64,000 nt of DNA, taken from positions 1,674,001 through 1,738,000 of the forward strand of contig NZ_CP035807.1 in NCBI RefSeq assembly GCF_008329945.1. Reading direction: 5' to 3'. Shown here one piece after another: positions 39,570-61,163 of the stretch; within the stretch, counting starts at the first letter, position 1, and the number at the start of each line of letters is the position of its first letter. A program made the translations under genes and the position numbers. The DNA comes from Thiospirochaeta perfilievii. GTDB taxonomy: Bacteria > Spirochaetota > Spirochaetia > DSM-2461. The notes under the pieces were generated by a model, which was not told where the DNA came from, made no database searches, and was given only the letters and a program-made list of their open reading frames with translations.

Positions 39570-41810
39570 CTAATTTTGCTCTATTTCAAACCAATTAAGA
39601 TTTACATCAACAGCAGAAATAACAATTTCAGATTCTCCTTCTGGTAATACTATTTCACCAGAAATTGTTTCCCAGTTCTGCCAATCCTCAGACCCCTTAT
39701 ACGTTAGTTCTGTAGTACCGGAGTTTGTTCTAGTTATTAAAGGATTATCTGTTGTTGCAGAGGCTACTCTATAATTAACTTTGTAACTTCCAGCCGATGG
39801 AGCAATAACCCTATATTTTAGCCAATTGCCATCAGTCATCCATCCAATATTAAGTCCACCCTCAGAGCACTCCTGTGTTTGTGGAACTTCTGATTTACTG
39901 TAAAAGTCTTCGGCTTCGATTCTTGTTAATCCTATTATTTTTTTAGGTTTAATTAGCTTACTAAAAGAGACATTATCAATATAAACAGTATCAGTACTAT
40001 TCTCATCGTCTAAAATAAATGCAACTTTTACATTATTATAGTCTTTATTTATTCCATTGAACTCAAAGGAGTACTTTTTTGAAACTTCCAGTAAGTCAAC
40101 TTTTATTTTCTCACCAATTAATTTCCATTTTTCATCAAAAAGCCCTAAATAAATTTTCCTTAAATCATTAGAGTATCCATTAAAAGCAATTTTATAACGA
40201 TCATCCTTAGTTAGACCAATATTCTCTTGATATAACATAATTGAGTTCTCTTGGTTACTGCTATCTATTGTGACTATTTTAGCCTCTCTACTATATAAAT
40301 CAGGATTCACACTAAACATCGCATCACTTTTACTATCAACTAACAAGTTCCAAAATGTTTTTCTGTCGTTACCACGATCAAATGTACCATTATATATAAC
40401 ATTTCCATATTTTTGTGGTAAGTGATTTGGTATTTCAACAATGTCTCCTGGCATAGCGATGACTTCTAACTTAATGTCATCTAGCCAGATATCAGCATCA
40501 TCAAGGCCCATATTAAACTCATACCTTGCTTTAACATCTGTCTTCTCTTCCATTTTAAAGTCGAAGCTATACTCTTTCATCTCTTTTGAAATATTAATTT
40601 GTTTCTCACCAGAGTAAGCTGTCCAGCCTCTATCTTCCAAACCACCAATCTTTAACATAAAACTTCTATTTTTTTCAGACCTAGCTTTAAAACTAACTCT
40701 ATATGTATAGCCTTTTCTAACATTCATATCTGTTTGAAATAACTGGTTAGCCCAAGTTTGATTTCCAGATGCATTTATGTTAATAAACATTTCACCATTT
40801 TCAATTGAGGCAGAACCTACTCCCCCTTCATTGTTAATAAAAGTCCAAAACTCATCGCCATCATTAAACTTATCATTTAATACATAGTTTCCATCATCCT
40901 GGGGAGCTCTACCAACTAATTCTGAACCATTAGTATCTTCAACTGGTTTGTTTACTAGCTTATATGGACTATTTAACTCATAAACTCTAACCCAATCTAT
41001 CTCGAACTTTTGTGGAAATTTTGTGGAATCATTAGGATTTCCTGGCCAAGTACCCCCAACAGCTAAGTTAAACTGCAGGTAGAAATCTCTATCAAATGGA
41101 GCAGGGAAGGTCAAGCTTTCAACTGATTCCTCATTATTAGAATACCAGTCATTCTGAGTTTGATAGAGTATACCATCAACATACCACTTAATCTCACCTG
41201 GTAGCCAATCTAATGTATAAGTATGAAATGAGTCACTAAAATTACCAGAATCTAAGGTATAAAAAGTTCCAGTAGAGCTTTTGGGATTTCCATAGTGCAG
41301 TGTTCCGTAGACTTTATTAGTCTCATGACCTAATGATTCCATTATATCAATCTCTCCACACGCGGGCCATGGTCCATAAATATCATAGTCTGTAGGCATC
41401 ATCCACAGTGCAGGCCACATTCCCTGGCCTTTTGGTAATTTCGCCCTTATCTCGTATCTACCATAGGTCCAATCTCCCTTCCCCTCTGTAGTTAACTTTG
41501 CAGAAGTAAAGTTACTACCGTTATAATCTTCCTTATGTGCCTCTAGAATAAGTTTTCCATTTTCAATTCTGGCATTTTTTTCTCTAGAGGTATAATTTTG
41601 AAGCTCTGAATTTCCGTAACCTCCAGCACCTTCTACAAAATTCCAATTCGTTTTATCTATTGTACTAGACTCAAATTCATCACTCCAAACAAGTGTCCAG
41701 TTCTCTCTTGTTTCCTTTAAATCATCCTGTACATCTGTAGTTTTTGATGTTGTACAAGATGAGATTACAGCTATTATAGTAGTTATAATTATATATTTAT
41801 AAAATTTCAT
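39570..41810 (-). CDS. GH16 endo-beta-glucanase lipoprotein with CBMs
   Basis: 746 aa with a lipoprotein signal (ISSC near 19). The GH16 domain at about 35-280 begins WTLVWSDEFESS and has the catalytic GEIDIMES with both Glu residues near 152; it is of the laminarinase subtype (beta-1,3-glucan hydrolysis). Two CBM4/9-like segments follow (about 305-460 and 470-625) and a CBM6-like domain closes the protein (RIEAEDFYSKSE, NIGWMTDGNWLKYRV). GGAGAG precedes the ATG. It follows the smaller GH16 gene in the same operon. Confidence 0.9.
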   Translation of the reverse strand: MKFYKYIIITTIIAVISSCTTSKTTDVQDDLKETRENWTLVWSDEFESSTIDKTNWNFVEGAGGYGNSELQNYTSREKNARIENGKLILEAHKEDYNGSNFTSAKLTTEGKGDWTYGRYEIRAKLPKGQGMWPALWMMPTDYDIYGPWPACGEIDIMESLGHETNKVYGTLHYGNPKSSTGTFYTLDSGNFSDSFHTYTLDWLPGEIKWYVDGILYQTQNDWYSNNEESVESLTFPAPFDRDFYLQFNLAVGGTWPGNPNDSTKFPQKFEIDWVRVYELNSPYKLVNKPVEDTNGSELVGRAPQDDGNYVLNDKFNDGDEFWTFINNEGGVGSASIENGEMFININASGNQTWANQLFQTDMNVRKGYTYRVSFKARSEKNRSFMLKIGGLEDRGWTAYSGEKQINISKEMKEYSFDFKMEEKTDVKARYEFNMGLDDADIWLDDIKLEVIAMPGDIVEIPNHLPQKYGNVIYNGTFDRGNDRKTFWNLLVDSKSDAMFSVNPDLYSREAKIVTIDSSNQENSIMLYQENIGLTKDDRYKIAFNGYSNDLRKIYLGLFDEKWKLIGEKIKVDLLEVSKKYSFEFNGINKDYNNVKVAFILDDENSTDTVYIDNVSFSKLIKPKKIIGLTRIEAEDFYSKSEVPQTQECSEGGLNIGWMTDGNWLKYRVIAPSAGSYKVNYRVASATTDNPLITRTNSGTTELTYKGSEDWQNWETISGEIVLPEGESEIVISAVDVNLNWFEIEQN

Positions 41811-41823
41811 TTAACTCTCCAAT

Positions 41824-42597
41824 CTATTTTTTATATGAAATATAGTCATATTCAGCATATAATGGCCCACTATAATAAAAGTGATTTAGCCAATCATCCA
41901 CGCCAACTCCAGGCCATAGGTTTACCATTATTTGCATAGGATGGCTTGGCATTAAAGCTCCGTAAGGTGCATTAAACCCTGTATTATTGACTCCATATTT
42001 CCAAACTCCATCTACATACCAATTAATATAACCATTACCATACTCAATTGCATATTTATGAAACCCATAAGCAGCATCAAAACCAAGATCAATAACAGCT
42101 TCATGGCCTCCGATACCATTTACATAATAATTAAACTGGACCTTTGTTGTATCTTTTCCTAAAATTTCAACATCTATCTCATCCCAGGGGGATCCAGTAT
42201 ACAAAAAGAAAGATGTAACAATACCATTACCTTTTGCAGCCTTCATATTTGTTTCAAAAGTCCCAAAACTAAATGTATTTTTACTTCTATACTCCCCACT
42301 AGAATAACTTTTACCAAAACTATAGGTATTGTCTAGTTTTAATACTAACTTACCGTTGCTAAATGTTGCTTTTTCAGGTAACCAACCACAGTTAAACATT
42401 CCGTCATTTGTCCAATTTGCTTTTTCAAACTGGCTGGTATTGTAATAATTCATAGGTTCCCACATGTCCCATGTTTGAATATAGCGACTACCTGACTCAA
42501 TGGTACTAATATCTTTTTCATTAGATATCTGGCTAATATTACAGCCCATAAATAAAATTGAAATAAACAAATAAAACAGACTTAATTTTATTTTCAT
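41824..42597 (-). CDS. GH16 lichenase-type beta-glucanase lipoprotein
   Basis: 257 aa with lipoprotein signal (LFMGC near 19). The catalytic motif is WDEIDVEILG near 138, with the three acidic residues in the lichenase (beta-1,3-1,4-glucanase) spacing; HKYAIEYGNGYINWYVDG follows near 180. It should degrade mixed-linkage glucans outside the cell. It begins 91 bases after the regulator gene. A GTAC-N5-GTAC motif lies about 74 bases upstream of the ATG. Confidence 0.9.
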   Translation of the reverse strand: MKIKLSLFYLFISILFMGCNISQISNEKDISTIESGSRYIQTWDMWEPMNYYNTSQFEKANWTNDGMFNCGWLPEKATFSNGKLVLKLDNTYSFGKSYSSGEYRSKNTFSFGTFETNMKAAKGNGIVTSFFLYTGSPWDEIDVEILGKDTTKVQFNYYVNGIGGHEAVIDLGFDAAYGFHKYAIEYGNGYINWYVDGVWKYGVNNTGFNAPYGALMPSHPMQIMVNLWPGVGVDDWLNHFYYSGPLYAEYDYISYKK

Positions 42598-42670
42598 TTA
42601 TGCTCTCCTTTTAATAGCATTATCAAAGGATAATAAGGATAGAGACAGAGACTTTAATATTTAATTTTTT

Positions 42671-42688
42671 AGGTACCAAAAGTACTAG
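42671..42688 (-). promoter_or_regulatory. Candidate glucan operator, GH16 copy
   Basis: The minus strand reads CTAGTACTTTTGGTACCT: GTAC and GTAC separated by five bases, preceded by TAG. The same layout occurs near the porin and the small lipoprotein genes. Confidence 0.55.
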
Positions 42689-44977
42689 TTACTTTTCCAC
42701 TGATAACAAAGAGTTCATAACACTAAATAGATAATGGCTATACCCATGTTTATCAACCTGGTAGTTTTGAATCTCCTGTACAAGTTCTATTTTATTAGTT
42801 ACTTTAAATTTAGAATATATTCTAGACATATGACCTTTTACTGTACTTTCAGAGATAAACAACTCTTTTGCAATACTTCTAATTGATAATCCCTGTAATA
42901 TTAGTCCAATAACATCCTTCTCTCTTTTAGAGATATTTTTTTCAATATAAAACGAGTTATCAGGAAGTACAGTATCTTTAATTAATGGTATTGCATCAAA
43001 AACAAACCATCTAAAACCTATAATTTCATTATTTTTATTAAATAGACCACTAATCTGGGCTACTGGAATATATCTGTTATTAATTTCATCGATAAGACGA
43101 ACTCCAGGATACTTAAGAAAGGTGTCTTTATTTTTTATCTTCCATTTTAGGGAATCAATAATTTTTAAATCTTCATTAGGTATTACTGACCTTAAAGACC
43201 TTACACTCTGCCCATTTCTAGTTAACTCGTTATGTAAAAAGTTGTTTTTAAATAAAATTCCAGTATTTAAATCTGTATCCATAATCATCATTGGAATCAT
43301 TTCAAAGATACTATCTAGACGAGTCTTATTATCCTGCAAATTATATAGTTTATCCTCAATCAGCTTATTTTTATTTGTATTATGTAGTGTATTTGAAACT
43401 TCCCTACTTAAACTTTCATATATTATAGGTTCAAAATTACTTTTCTCAAAAACTACATAACCATAATATTGATCATTATACAAAAGTGGTAGAACAAAAT
43501 AGTCCTCGGAACTCTTATCCTCGTAAGGTAATTTATCTATTAAGTCAGATGCATTATTCCCTTGAGAAGACTTTTGATTATGTAAAACTATATAGGTATT
43601 TTTTATACCAAACTTACCAAATTCCTCATTTATAATTCTATATATATCTTCAAGACTGTTACAATAGTTAAATTTATCAGATGTTTCTCTTAATAAATAA
43701 AGTAGTACCTCTGTATTTTTCAACTTTTCTGCTAAGTTATGTGTATTTTTTAATACAAGTTCAGAATAACCACGTTTAAAAAGTTCATTTATGTAATTTT
43801 TTTCATTAATGTTAGGATAATAATCTAAAACCGTGCTTTGGCACTGGTTTAATATCTTATTCCAAATATCAAAATAATAGTTCCAATTAGTAGTTAATTT
43901 TAGCCAATCACTTAAGGCATATAGGAAAATTGGTTCCTTACGGAAACTATTTATATCTAAAATAATATTATCAATTAGGGTTGGAACTAACTTGCTCAAG
44001 TCATCTTGTATGCTTTTTTCATTGTTAAAATCAGTAATTATTAAATTAATTATCCTACTACGGTCAACTCTATCGATAGATTTATTTATTCTGCTTTTAA
44101 TCGGGATAAAGGCGTTGCAACCACAAGACTCCCTTATTATTAATTTAGTATCAACCTTTGTTATCATAGGTACATCTTTGTTATTAAATAACAACTCTAA
44201 TATAGTACATGCACTAAATGCCTGTTCGATTAATGGCTGATGAACTGTTGTTAATGGAGCTGTCATAAAGTTTGAATCTAATATATTATCAAAACCTGTG
44301 ATTAGATAATCTTTTGGTGATTTAAAGCCTAATTTATTTAACTCGTTGGAAATACCTAAAGCCATTTCATCATTAGCACAGATAAGAGCATCACATGTAA
44401 GACTACCGTTTATAACTAACTTATTTAAAAATTTGTTGAAACTATTATAACTAAAATCCCCTTTGAATATTAACTCGTTATCAAGTTTAAAACTGTTTTT
44501 TTTAATAGCTTCTTTATATCCTTTAAATCTTTCTAGGTTTTCAGCATTTGTTTCAGGCCCTGAAACAAACCCTATTTTCTCTACATCATGATTAGTTATT
44601 ATATGATCGACAACAGAAAACATTCCACCAAAGTTATCTGTAACAATACTAGGGATACCATCAATAATAGCACCAATGGACACCATAGGTTTAGTGTAAA
44701 AATTTTTTAAATAGTTATTAAGATCTTTAGAACTTAAATAGTTACCAATTGCACCAGAAATTGATATTATTCCATCAATTTTATCACTTTTGGATAGATT
44801 ATAAATAAAATTATAAAGCTGTTCACCATCATTTGGAGAGTTTATTGATCTTCCTATAAAAAAGTAAAATTTAAATGGGTGTAATTTGGAATACTCTTCA
44901 AAGCCTTTTAAAATTAAACTTTGATATCTTCCATCAACATTATTTATTAATACACCAATTTTTTTGTTATCACCCAT
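42689..44977 (-). CDS. Regulator with sugar-binding domain and LuxR HTH
   Basis: 762 aa. Residues 1-290 form a LacI-type periplasmic-binding-like domain without the LacI helix-turn-helix (KIGVLINNVDGRYQSLILKGFEEY, DALICANDEMALG, GFDNILDS). A long middle region has a GAF/PAS-like part near 440-560 and a PAS-like part near 575-690. A LuxR-type helix-turn-helix ends the chain (ISKREKDVIGLILQGLSIRSIA, SESTVKGHMSRIYSKF). It likely senses a glucan-derived sugar and controls the glucanases, lipoprotein and porin around it. Confidence 0.8.
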   Translation of the reverse strand: MGDNKKIGVLINNVDGRYQSLILKGFEEYSKLHPFKFYFFIGRSINSPNDGEQLYNFIYNLSKSDKIDGIISISGAIGNYLSSKDLNNYLKNFYTKPMVSIGAIIDGIPSIVTDNFGGMFSVVDHIITNHDVEKIGFVSGPETNAENLERFKGYKEAIKKNSFKLDNELIFKGDFSYNSFNKFLNKLVINGSLTCDALICANDEMALGISNELNKLGFKSPKDYLITGFDNILDSNFMTAPLTTVHQPLIEQAFSACTILELLFNNKDVPMITKVDTKLIIRESCGCNAFIPIKSRINKSIDRVDRSRIINLIITDFNNEKSIQDDLSKLVPTLIDNIILDINSFRKEPIFLYALSDWLKLTTNWNYYFDIWNKILNQCQSTVLDYYPNINEKNYINELFKRGYSELVLKNTHNLAEKLKNTEVLLYLLRETSDKFNYCNSLEDIYRIINEEFGKFGIKNTYIVLHNQKSSQGNNASDLIDKLPYEDKSSEDYFVLPLLYNDQYYGYVVFEKSNFEPIIYESLSREVSNTLHNTNKNKLIEDKLYNLQDNKTRLDSIFEMIPMMIMDTDLNTGILFKNNFLHNELTRNGQSVRSLRSVIPNEDLKIIDSLKWKIKNKDTFLKYPGVRLIDEINNRYIPVAQISGLFNKNNEIIGFRWFVFDAIPLIKDTVLPDNSFYIEKNISKREKDVIGLILQGLSIRSIAKELFISESTVKGHMSRIYSKFKVTNKIELVQEIQNYQVDKHGYSHYLFSVMNSLLSVEK

Positions 44978-45030
44978 AAATAGCCACTTCTCCTAAAATA
45001 TGTTTACAACTAAGAATAATACACTAATAT

Positions 45031-45047
45031 AGGACTTTTTGTACTAT
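45031..45047 (+). promoter_or_regulatory. Candidate glucan operator, lipoprotein copy
   Basis: AGGACTTTTTGTACTA has one altered half-site (GGAC) and the same five-base spacing to GTAC. It lies 70 bases before the lipoprotein ATG and 54 bases from the regulator start. Confidence 0.5.
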
Positions 45048-45116
45048 TTATTTAGAAACAATTCGGCTCTGTCTGTATATAAGTTTTGACTGAATAATAA
45101 TATTCAAGGAGATAAC

Positions 45117-45722
45117 ATGAAAAAAATAATTTTAGTTTTAACAACAGTACTTACTGTATTAGTGTTAAGTAGTTGTGATGTAGATGGATCAGAGACAACA
45201 AAGAAAGATGATTCTACGTTAAATGAAAGCCAAGGTGAAGTTACTAATGTAACAAAAATAAGTAGCTATATTTCTAACTTCACAAATTGGGAAGAGAACA
45301 AAGATGCTGATGGTTCAACAATATCAATTGTTGTAGAGAGTGATAATTTGTTAGTAAGTTACGACATTTCTAATTCAACTAATCAATATCCATATTCCCA
45401 AACAATGGTAACTGCTGTAGATACGGATGATACAAATATTCCATTTACAGATGTAAAAACAATTACTATTGCTTACAAATCTGGGACAGATCTAAATATT
45501 AGGTTAAACGATGAAGGAAACGATGGAAAAGAGTATTTCCATACACTAGCAGCTTCAACAGAATTTACCACAGTAAAATTAAATCTTAACACCACAGATT
45601 TTGCCCAACCAGATTGGGCTACAGGGGATAGGGATTTAATACTAAGTAATGTCGTAGGAGTTGTTGTATATGGTACAGATAACTCAGGTTCATTCGAACT
45701 AGATAGTATCTCAGTAGAATAA
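45117..45722 (+). CDS. Lipoprotein with carbohydrate-binding-like fold
   Basis: 201 aa with a lipoprotein signal (VLSSCD near 20). The mature part begins with an acidic, Ser/Thr-rich linker and then shows beta-sandwich features found in CBMs (TIAYKSGTDLNIRLNDEG, FTTVKLNLNTTDF, VGVVVYGTDNSGSFELDSISV). GGAG precedes the ATG. It is divergent from the glucan regulator and likely a surface glucan-binding protein; no exact family was recognised. Confidence 0.65.
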   Translation: MKKIILVLTTVLTVLVLSSCDVDGSETTKKDDSTLNESQGEVTNVTKISSYISNFTNWEENKDADGSTISIVVESDNLLVSYDISNSTNQYPYSQTMVTAVDTDDTNIPFTDVKTITIAYKSGTDLNIRLNDEGNDGKEYFHTLAASTEFTTVKLNLNTTDFAQPDWATGDRDLILSNVVGVVVYGTDNSGSFELDSISVE

Positions 45723-45738
45723 AAAAATAATACAAGAG

Positions 45739-45767
45739 GAGCAGTTACACCAAAGGTGTAACTGCTC
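45739..45767. terminator. Bidirectional terminator between lipoprotein and porin genes
   Basis: GAGCAGTTACACC and GGTGTAACTGCTC form a perfect 13-base stem with an AAA loop. It lies between convergent genes. Confidence 0.85.
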
Positions 45768-45782
45768 AAAGGAAAATAAAAA

Positions 45783-46826
45783 TTAGAACCACATATTGAT
45801 TTTATATGATGTAGCTATAGTTGCTTCAGCATCATCAGCTGTTGATGTTGATAGTGTTAGTGCTAATGATGTGCTTAAATTACCAAAAGACTTTTTAATT
45901 ACACCTGCAGCACCAATCCCTAGAATATCATTTGTATCGTTACCACTTACACTTGCTTCGATATCTAGTCCTATTACAGGAACTACGGGTGTAGCTTTTA
46001 GTCCAAAAAAGTAATCATTTTGTGTCTCTGTTATTTTGTATGTTGTTTCAGAAACTAGATTAACAAAGTTTTTAATATCATAACCAAGGTTTGCGCTAAT
46101 CCATTTAACGTTAGCATCTTTAGTGAGAGTTGATTCAAACTTAATATCTGCTAAAAGTTGTGGAATTATTTTTATAGATGTTGCAATCCATAAAGATCCA
46201 TCGTCCTCTCGAGGAGTATAACCAGCATAAATTTGACCAAATGAATCCATGTTATATTTAAAATTAATATTTATCGCATTTTTAAGATTATCTTCTAAAA
46301 CTATTTCAGATCCTCCTCCAAGAGAATAAACAAAAGCAGCTGATAAATTATTTAGATTTATTTCTGCTATTAAGCCATCTTTTGCCCCTGTATAACCATT
46401 TCCCATAGCTTGAAAATCATATCGACCAAGACCTAAACCAAATGCATCATTAAAAAGTTCACCCTCTATTGCATTAGGGGAGTAGGATATAACTTCCATA
46501 TCGTTACCAGCAAAAAGTTTAAACATCCCACTACTATTAAAATCAGTCCACAGATAGGCTTGTTTAACTTTAAAGTCGCTTGATGATGGAACGAACTCAC
46601 CAGGGTACCACCCACCAACACCCATTTCTCCTCCAAAACCTTCTCCATTAACTTTTACATTTACCGAAAAGTCGTTACTGCCAAACTTAGTAGTTGGGTC
46701 ATTATCTCCAACGGTTTTGTAAAGTTCACCTTTTGTTTCAAACCAACCATCAAGAACAACATCAACTGCAGAAGCAAATGATACAAAGACTAAAGACAAC
46801 AGTAATAAAGTTGTAATTTTTTTCAT
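45783..46826 (-). CDS. Outer-membrane beta-barrel protein (porin-like)
   Basis: 347 aa with a signal peptide (ALA-type cleavage near residue 20 after VSFASA). The mature chain is a series of amphipathic strands with Gly turns and ends in ATSYKINMWF, an aromatic C-terminus typical of outer-membrane barrels. It is convergent with the small lipoprotein gene and shares the operator motif with the glucan genes, so it may take up glucan oligosaccharides. No exact family recognised. Confidence 0.75.
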   Translation of the reverse strand: MKKITTLLLLSLVFVSFASAVDVVLDGWFETKGELYKTVGDNDPTTKFGSNDFSVNVKVNGEGFGGEMGVGGWYPGEFVPSSSDFKVKQAYLWTDFNSSGMFKLFAGNDMEVISYSPNAIEGELFNDAFGLGLGRYDFQAMGNGYTGAKDGLIAEINLNNLSAAFVYSLGGGSEIVLEDNLKNAININFKYNMDSFGQIYAGYTPREDDGSLWIATSIKIIPQLLADIKFESTLTKDANVKWISANLGYDIKNFVNLVSETTYKITETQNDYFFGLKATPVVPVIGLDIEASVSGNDTNDILGIGAAGVIKKSFGNLSTSLALTLSTSTADDAEATIATSYKINMWF

Positions 46827-46909
46827 AATTTCTAACCTCCATTTAATTAGATTTTAATTATTCAATCTAAATAGAAATTAGTGCAGGTCCCTAAATATTG
46901 GAAAAAACC

Positions 46910-46928
46910 AGTACAAAAGGTACTAGCT
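46910..46928 (-). promoter_or_regulatory. Candidate glucan operator, porin copy
   Basis: On the minus strand AGCTAGTACCTTTTGTACT has GTAC-N5-GTAC preceded by TAG, 83 bases before the porin ATG. Confidence 0.55.
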
Positions 46929-60340: not shown

Positions 60341-61163
60341 AGTAATAATCCAAAGGGCTAATAATCTCATTTTTTTCTTCTAAAACATGGGCATATACTA
60401 AAGTTGTTGTAAGGTTTTTATGGCCAAGAAATTTTTGAAGTTGAAATATTCCACCTCCATTTTCTAAATAATGGGTTGCAAAAGAATGTCTTAGTCCATG
60501 AATCCCTCCATCTCTTGTAACTCCTGCTCTTTCCTTTGCTAAATAAAACGCTTGCTGACATGAACGCGGGGAATATGGGTTACCATCTCGGCCTTGAAAG
60601 AAATATGTTGTCGGTTTGTAGGCAAGCCAGTATTGTTCTAAGAGTTTTAAAGCTCTATCTGATAGAATAGTATAACGATCTTTTCCTCCTTTTCCCTGCC
60701 TAACAAGTAGACGTTTTTGATTCCTATACACATCACTTATTTTTATGTTTACAGATTCACTAAGCCGTAACCCAGATGAATAGATTAATGTTAAAATAGT
60801 TTTATGTTTAAGGTTTTTGGCATTATCTAAAATAGAATGGACTTCATTTGCCGTATACCACACAGGAAGTTTTCTTTTTACTTTGATATTAGGAATATTT
60901 AGAGATTCCCAAGATAGCCCTAGTGTTTGAGTATAAAGATATTTTATAGCACTACTTGTCTGTTTTAAACTTGAGTTAGATAAATGATGTTCGGATACCA
61001 GGTGGTAGAGGTAATCTTTTAGTTCTTCTGCTTTGGGAATTTTTTCCGAAAGATTCGTATGTTGTAGAAATTGTACTATTTGTGAAGTATACACCTGGCA
61101 GGTTTTAGGACTATAACCCCGAAGATTTAAATCCCTCTGAAAACGTGTTATTATATTTTGCAT
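60324..61163 (-). CDS. Tyrosine recombinase of the IS91-type element
   Basis: 279 aa. Core-binding domain at residues 1-90 (GYSPKTCQVYTSQIVQFL), catalytic domain with SGLRLSESV (Arg), QGKGGKDR (Lys), IHGLRHSFATH (His-x-x-Arg), LGHKNLTTTLVYAH (His and Tyr). It lacks the extra I2 helix and PxxL spacer of integron integrases, and this Xer-like type is commonly paired with IS91 transposases. So it belongs to the mobile element and is not the integron integrase. Confidence 0.88.
   Translation of the reverse strand: MQNIITRFQRDLNLRGYSPKTCQVYTSQIVQFLQHTNLSEKIPKAEELKDYLYHLVSEHHLSNSSLKQTSSAIKYLYTQTLGLSWESLNIPNIKVKRKLPVWYTANEVHSILDNAKNLKHKTILTLIYSSGLRLSESVNIKISDVYRNQKRLLVRQGKGGKDRYTILSDRALKLLEQYWLAYKPTTYFFQGRDGNPYSPRSCQQAFYLAKERAGVTRDGGIHGLRHSFATHYLENGGGIFQLQKFLGHKNLTTTLVYAHVLEEKNEIISPLDYYYENSK

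Follow-up and report, generated by a model that had tools for sequence, protein, structure and literature searches.

Local sugar regulators of the LacI/GalR family and their regulons have been described (e.g. PMC4052901); they share with the regulator reported here a LacI-type sensor, a small local regulon for glycan degradation and a palindromic operator, which is putative in our case. In contrast to them, our protein carries a C-terminal LuxR/NarL helix-turn-helix (HTH) and not an N-terminal LacI HTH, and its presumed site lies upstream of the promoter. LacI operators typically have a central CG, which this site lacks. E. coli XylR is a LacI-like sensor fused to an AraC HTH. Like our regulator, it joins a periplasmic-binding-protein-like sensor to an unrelated activator-type HTH and controls local sugar genes, but our protein has a LuxR-type HTH instead of the AraC one and, in addition, some 390 aa of middle region. 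With NarL, MalT and LuxR it shares the HTH fold and the STVK recognition helix, and presumably also the dimeric binding to inverted-repeat sites, whereas it contains no receiver, ATPase or acyl-homoserine-lactone domain; its motif has GTAC-based half-sites, which resemble neither the NarL heptamer nor the MalT box. As in the polysaccharide utilisation loci of Bacteroidota, a surface hydrolase, a glycan-binding lipoprotein, an outer-membrane pore and a regulator of their own are clustered. Unlike those loci, the cluster shows a simple porin and no SusC/SusD pair among its genes, and its regulator is a one-component, predicted cytoplasmic protein, whereas theirs are hybrid two-component systems or anti-sigma pairs. 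Taken singly, the sensor, the HTH, the target types and the local regulon logic are of known kinds, and what appears to be new is the combination of LacI-type sensor and LuxR-type HTH together with the candidate GTAC operator: a literature search of incomplete coverage returned no such regulator with a GTAC operator and no spirochaete lichenase regulon.

The cluster lies in the window (the whole stretch of 64,000 nucleotides of Thiospirochaeta perfilievii that was analysed) and is composed as follows.

39570 to 41810, minus strand: laminarinase-like protein of 746 aa with GH16, CBM4_9 and CBM6, 13 bp past the lichenase gene
41824 to 42597, minus strand: GH16 lichenase (1,3-1,4-beta-glucanase), a lipoprotein of 257 aa (Pfam E 5e-41)
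42689 to 44977, minus strand: regulator of 762 aa, with a LacI/PurR/CcpA-type sensor (residues 6-285), a long middle region and a LuxR/NarL HTH (residues 681-734)
45117 to 45722, plus strand: lipoprotein of 201 aa, a beta-sandwich resembling CBM11 (predicted structure, pLDDT 62)
45739 to 45767, no strand assigned: hairpin terminator with a perfect 13-bp stem, shared by the lipoprotein and porin genes, which converge on it
45783 to 46826, minus strand: porin-like outer-membrane protein of 347 aa, assigned by homology to the porin of the paralogue locus

The 257-aa GH16 protein aligned with the lichenase of PDB 1MAC over the whole catalytic domain (residues 45-255, E 1.3e-64). Because only 13 bp separate it from the 746-aa GH16 gene, both probably form one operon. 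The lipoprotein had no match in a Pfam search, and Foldseek with its model (pLDDT 62) gave as best matches the C. thermocellum CBM11 with a mixed-linkage tetrasaccharide (CtCBM11, 6r31/1v0a; E about 1e-6, TM 0.45-0.52). The porin, without Pfam or NCBIfam match, shares 35% identity (E 2e-56) with the porin encoded next to a paralogous regulator in genome G016. In relatives, the gene after GH16 is a GH94 (G390 and G451) or a GH5 (G001). The lichenase, the CBM11-like fold and these GH94/GH5 neighbours give a coherent beta-glucan substrate logic, and with the laminarinase-like GH16 and the porin the contents appear to fit the beta-glucan regulon that had been put forward in an earlier note on this DNA. 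In the lipoprotein orthologue of contig L031 (5560-5850), we also observed that lipobox and sandwich are joined by a long linker of Thr-Asp-rich repeats (DTTGTT units), absent from the window copy.

The earlier note had pointed to three shared sequences before these genes, all of which were found at their places.

42671 to 42687, minus strand: site 1, TAGTACTTTTGGTACCT, 5′ of the lichenase/GH16 operon and 2 bp past the regulator stop codon
45030 to 45046, plus strand: site 2, TAGGACTTTTTGTACTA, 5′ of the lipoprotein gene, with the divergent regulator start 53 bp away
46909 to 46925, minus strand: site 3, TAGTACCTTTTGTACTG, 5′ of the porin gene

Their 15-bp forms are TAGTACTTTTGGTAC (42673-42687, minus), TAGGACTTTTTGTAC (45030-45044, plus) and TAGTACCTTTTGTAC (46911-46925, minus), the invariant core common to all three is ACYTTTNGTACY, and the orientation toward the gene is constant. 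The proposed GTAC-N5-GTAC form holds for two of the three sites, the lipoprotein site reading GGAC-N5-GTAC. The last C of GTAC precedes the ATG by 75 bp (GH16), 72 bp (lipoprotein) and 84 bp (porin). The motif had not been noticed elsewhere in the window; besides the three sites we found a single 1-mismatch match (61064-61078), which falls in a repeated element, within a reading frame of 279 aa. This frame sits in a 1.7-kb stretch, 99.5% identical to a stretch at genome position ~1403124 and probably an insertion sequence. When up to 3 mismatches were allowed, the window gave 41 matches for 33 expected, which is chance level, and the window data by themselves would not convince. These loose matches, and the derivation of the pattern from three sites only, are what would speak for a chance similarity or for the remnant of a recent promoter duplication inside the cluster, a reading to which we return with the comparative counts.

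We then scanned the 3.70-Mb genome. Of the 11 matches to the core ACYTTTNGTACY, eight are within reading frames; the other three, which are the sites described above, are the sole matches between genes. For the strict form TAGKACNNTTNGTAC there are four occurrences, at the same three sites and once inside a 354-aa reading frame; with 1 mismatch it is not enriched genome-wide (37 matches versus 46 in the reversed control). The ORF context was examined for 26 of the 1-mismatch sites and for the exact match in L001, seven other 1-mismatch sites lying outside this set. All the examined 1-mismatch sites fall within reading frames except one, located 20 bp 5′ of an S7-like ribosomal protein ORF, which is unconvincing as a further operator. 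The motif is thus not frequent in unrelated intergenic regions; frequent occurrence there would have spoken against the earlier note. The sites that the note expected before other glycoside hydrolase genes did not appear in the genome scan. Since the intergenic core matches are limited to the three reported sites, the putative regulon would be local, confined to the beta-glucan locus and not genome-wide.

The same cluster is present in L031 (JAFGYD010000041, a Spirochaetales metagenome contig, apparently the same contig as G016:C44), where the regulator is 69% identical and the core is kept at all three equivalent promoters, the lipoprotein promoter carrying TAGAACTTTTAGTACTG and the porin promoter CAGTACTTTTTGTACTG. 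At the position of site 1, the core is kept in five other genomes. In G001, of another genus (regulator about 42% identical), and in G390, G451 and G416, of another family (31-32% identical to the window protein), the regulator gene comes before a GH16 gene, and the core lies in the interval separating the two. In ungapped comparison of these four with the window GH16 promoter, the flanks are 18-50% identical upstream and 26-49% downstream, and the motif itself 68-74%. G451 and G416 carry a second, inverted copy of the core, centred 117 and 119 bp upstream, respectively. The pairs, both before GH16 genes and from one genus, lie at L079 5003-5131 and L080 7640-7770, the two centres of each pair being about 11 helical turns apart.

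Promoter elements were then placed in an alignment anchored on the core.

42619 to 42624, minus strand: predicted -10 of the GH16 promoter, GATAAT, 49 bp past site 1
45093 to 45098, plus strand: predicted -10 of the lipoprotein promoter, AATAAT, 49 bp past site 2
46857 to 46862, minus strand: predicted -10 of the porin promoter, AATAAT, 49 bp past site 3
42645 to 42649, minus strand: -35-like TCTGT, 24-28 bp past site 1
45068 to 45072, plus strand: -35-like TCTGT, 24-28 bp past site 2
46883 to 46887, minus strand: -35-like CCTGC, 24-28 bp past site 3

An AWAAT-like -10 hexamer starts 48 or 49 bp past the core GTAC in all 12 promoters aligned, and the summed -10 match exceeded that of all 5000 shuffles (P about 2e-4), a result that holds with one promoter per homologous group. 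A weak -35-like TCTRT is found at +24 to +28 after the core. In promoter-proximal cores the T-run is always on the coding strand. Counted from the first base of the -10, the centre of the site is 54-55 bp upstream, which puts it at about -66/-67 from the predicted start, although this start and the -67 position are uncertain because the assigned -10 would leave short 5′ leaders of 12-24 nt. As an alternative -10 we weighed a TATAAT-like match closer to the -35 (~+31 to +38) and discarded it because its spacing is not fixed, unlike that of the +48/49 element. A consensus promoter scan did not include the proposed promoters among its predictions, as expected for a weak -35.

The arrangement found in 12 of 12 promoters, upstream of the -35 and at a conserved distance from the -10, is that of a class I-type activator site. 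Fixed distance and orientation could also be taken for a promoter or sigma-factor recognition element, or for a feature of the mRNA. This is very improbable, since the motif stands 48 bp upstream of the -10 and beyond the -35, has the form of an imperfect inverted repeat and is missing from intergenic DNA elsewhere in the genome, where a sigma element would be common.

Profile searches with the 762-aa regulator placed its HTH in the LuxR/NarL group (PF00196, GerE HTH, residues 681-734, 59.6 bits versus a cut-off of 23.5), and a PDB search matched NarL and GerE chains. Its sensor contains the LacI-type sugar-binding core (PF13377, residues 132-285, 59.8 bits) and matched CcpA and PurR structures with E values of 1e-16 to 1e-20. 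Neither profile nor PDB searches gave a match for an N-terminal LacI HTH, the sensor beginning at residue 6; the protein is therefore no member of the LacI family and LacI-like in sensing only, and judged from its domains it probably senses like a LacI-family protein. All six orthologues of the regulator and two paralogues have the same recognition helix, STVKGH.

To follow site and promoter together, we used a composite pattern made of the core, CT and ATAAT at fixed spacing. With at most 1 mismatch it gave 7 matches in 26 genomes of the family (reversed control, 2); five are at orthologous loci and two flank a paralogue of the regulator (31% identical) on G016:C29. In 393 genomes of the phylum, the exact composite matched the three window sites only (reversed control, 3). 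The counts across the window genome, the 26 family genomes and the 393 phylum genomes, and the maintenance of the motif in five other genomes, where the flanks have mostly diverged, make the reading by chance or recent duplication scarcely credible; it is already contradicted by the comparative data.

The motif adjoins all six orthologues of the regulator that were found, and a 1-mismatch variant adjoins one paralogue. Conversely, genome G261 has a GH16 gene 69% identical to ours without the motif before it, and no strong match to the regulator. The two paralogues that share the recognition-helix core have no exact core nearby, and one of them, at G016:C29, has the 1-mismatch variant only, with AGTACCTATAGTACTG preceding the porin gene; no core was found near distant paralogues in G000, G062 and G129. 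Co-occurrence of motif and regulator is the strongest evidence that protein and site belong together, and with the absence at the G261 GH16 gene it supports the earlier note's suggestion of a binding site for the adjacent regulator. Association is not equal to binding, and the window genome encodes at least two more proteins of the same architecture, so the site might belong to a transcription factor encoded elsewhere, the regulator gene being a mere neighbour in a conserved cluster. We hold this to be improbable: in the 26 family genomes, the sole extra composite matches stand on either side of a gene paralogous to that of the regulator itself, the G261 gene, in a genome with no strong regulator match, lacks the motif, and the window genome has no further intergenic core site.

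The motif is thus very probably the binding site by which the adjacent regulator would switch on a small local gene set. The computations establish the motif, its restriction to the locus, its conservation, the promoter geometry and the association with the regulator family; binding, dimerisation, activation and the ligand are our inference. A regulator dimer would bind the imperfect inverted repeat TAGTAC-TTTTN-GTACTA. From about -66/-67 and in fixed orientation, it would most likely activate promoters with a poor -35, those of the lichenase and laminarinase-like GH16 operon, the CBM11-like lipoprotein and the porin, once its sensor has bound an oligosaccharide derived from beta-1,3-1,4- or beta-1,3-glucan. 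We hold with good confidence the reading that the 762-aa protein uses the motif as its operator and activates these three local units when the sensor is occupied.

The regulator could instead bind the same sites and repress, as LacI does, until released by the oligosaccharide. Its sensor is indeed closest to LacI-family repressors, and the inverted sites paired 117-119 bp apart in G451 and G416 suggest looping, which could mean looping with repression. Nevertheless, the site stands upstream of the -35 and -10 and not over them, its spacing and orientation are fixed, the poor -35 favours activation and the HTH is of LuxR/NarL and not LacI type; repression is accordingly unlikely and activation is favoured. 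Autoregulation via site 2 is possible in the window genome since 53 bp separate this site from the start of the divergent regulator gene; the regulator's own promoter in G001 and G390 has no site.

Activation by this regulator would join a spirochaete hydrolase, a surface binding protein and a porin in one regulated beta-glucan system. The analysis also provides a candidate operator and regulon, open to testing, for a sensor/HTH combination that has no characterised case in the literature searched; the exact promoter geometry allows direct reporter design, and targets of other family members can be sought with the pattern. On balance we lean, by a little, to the broader idea that LacI-sensor/LuxR-HTH proteins form a class of one-component activators in spirochaetes, each dedicated to a compact polysaccharide cluster (secreted hydrolase, carbohydrate-binding surface lipoprotein and porin) and having its own GTAC-type operator, set at constant distance from a promoter that is otherwise weak. 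If so, the paralogues of a genome would each be devoted to another glycan, here lichenan and at G016:C29 a GH5/CBM17-28 glycan. The gene set of the latter comprises ABC permeases, a solute-binding protein, the regulator paralogue, a CBM17/28 lipoprotein, a GH5-CBM9 enzyme and the homologous porin.

This second cluster of like design, with two variant sites, spans L064 296-10366. Just past the stop codon of the paralogue (L064 6180-6345), one variant site is followed by a predicted promoter and, directly downstream, by no same-strand frame of at least 80 aa; the gene of this unit may have been lost, or the unit may correspond to a small RNA.
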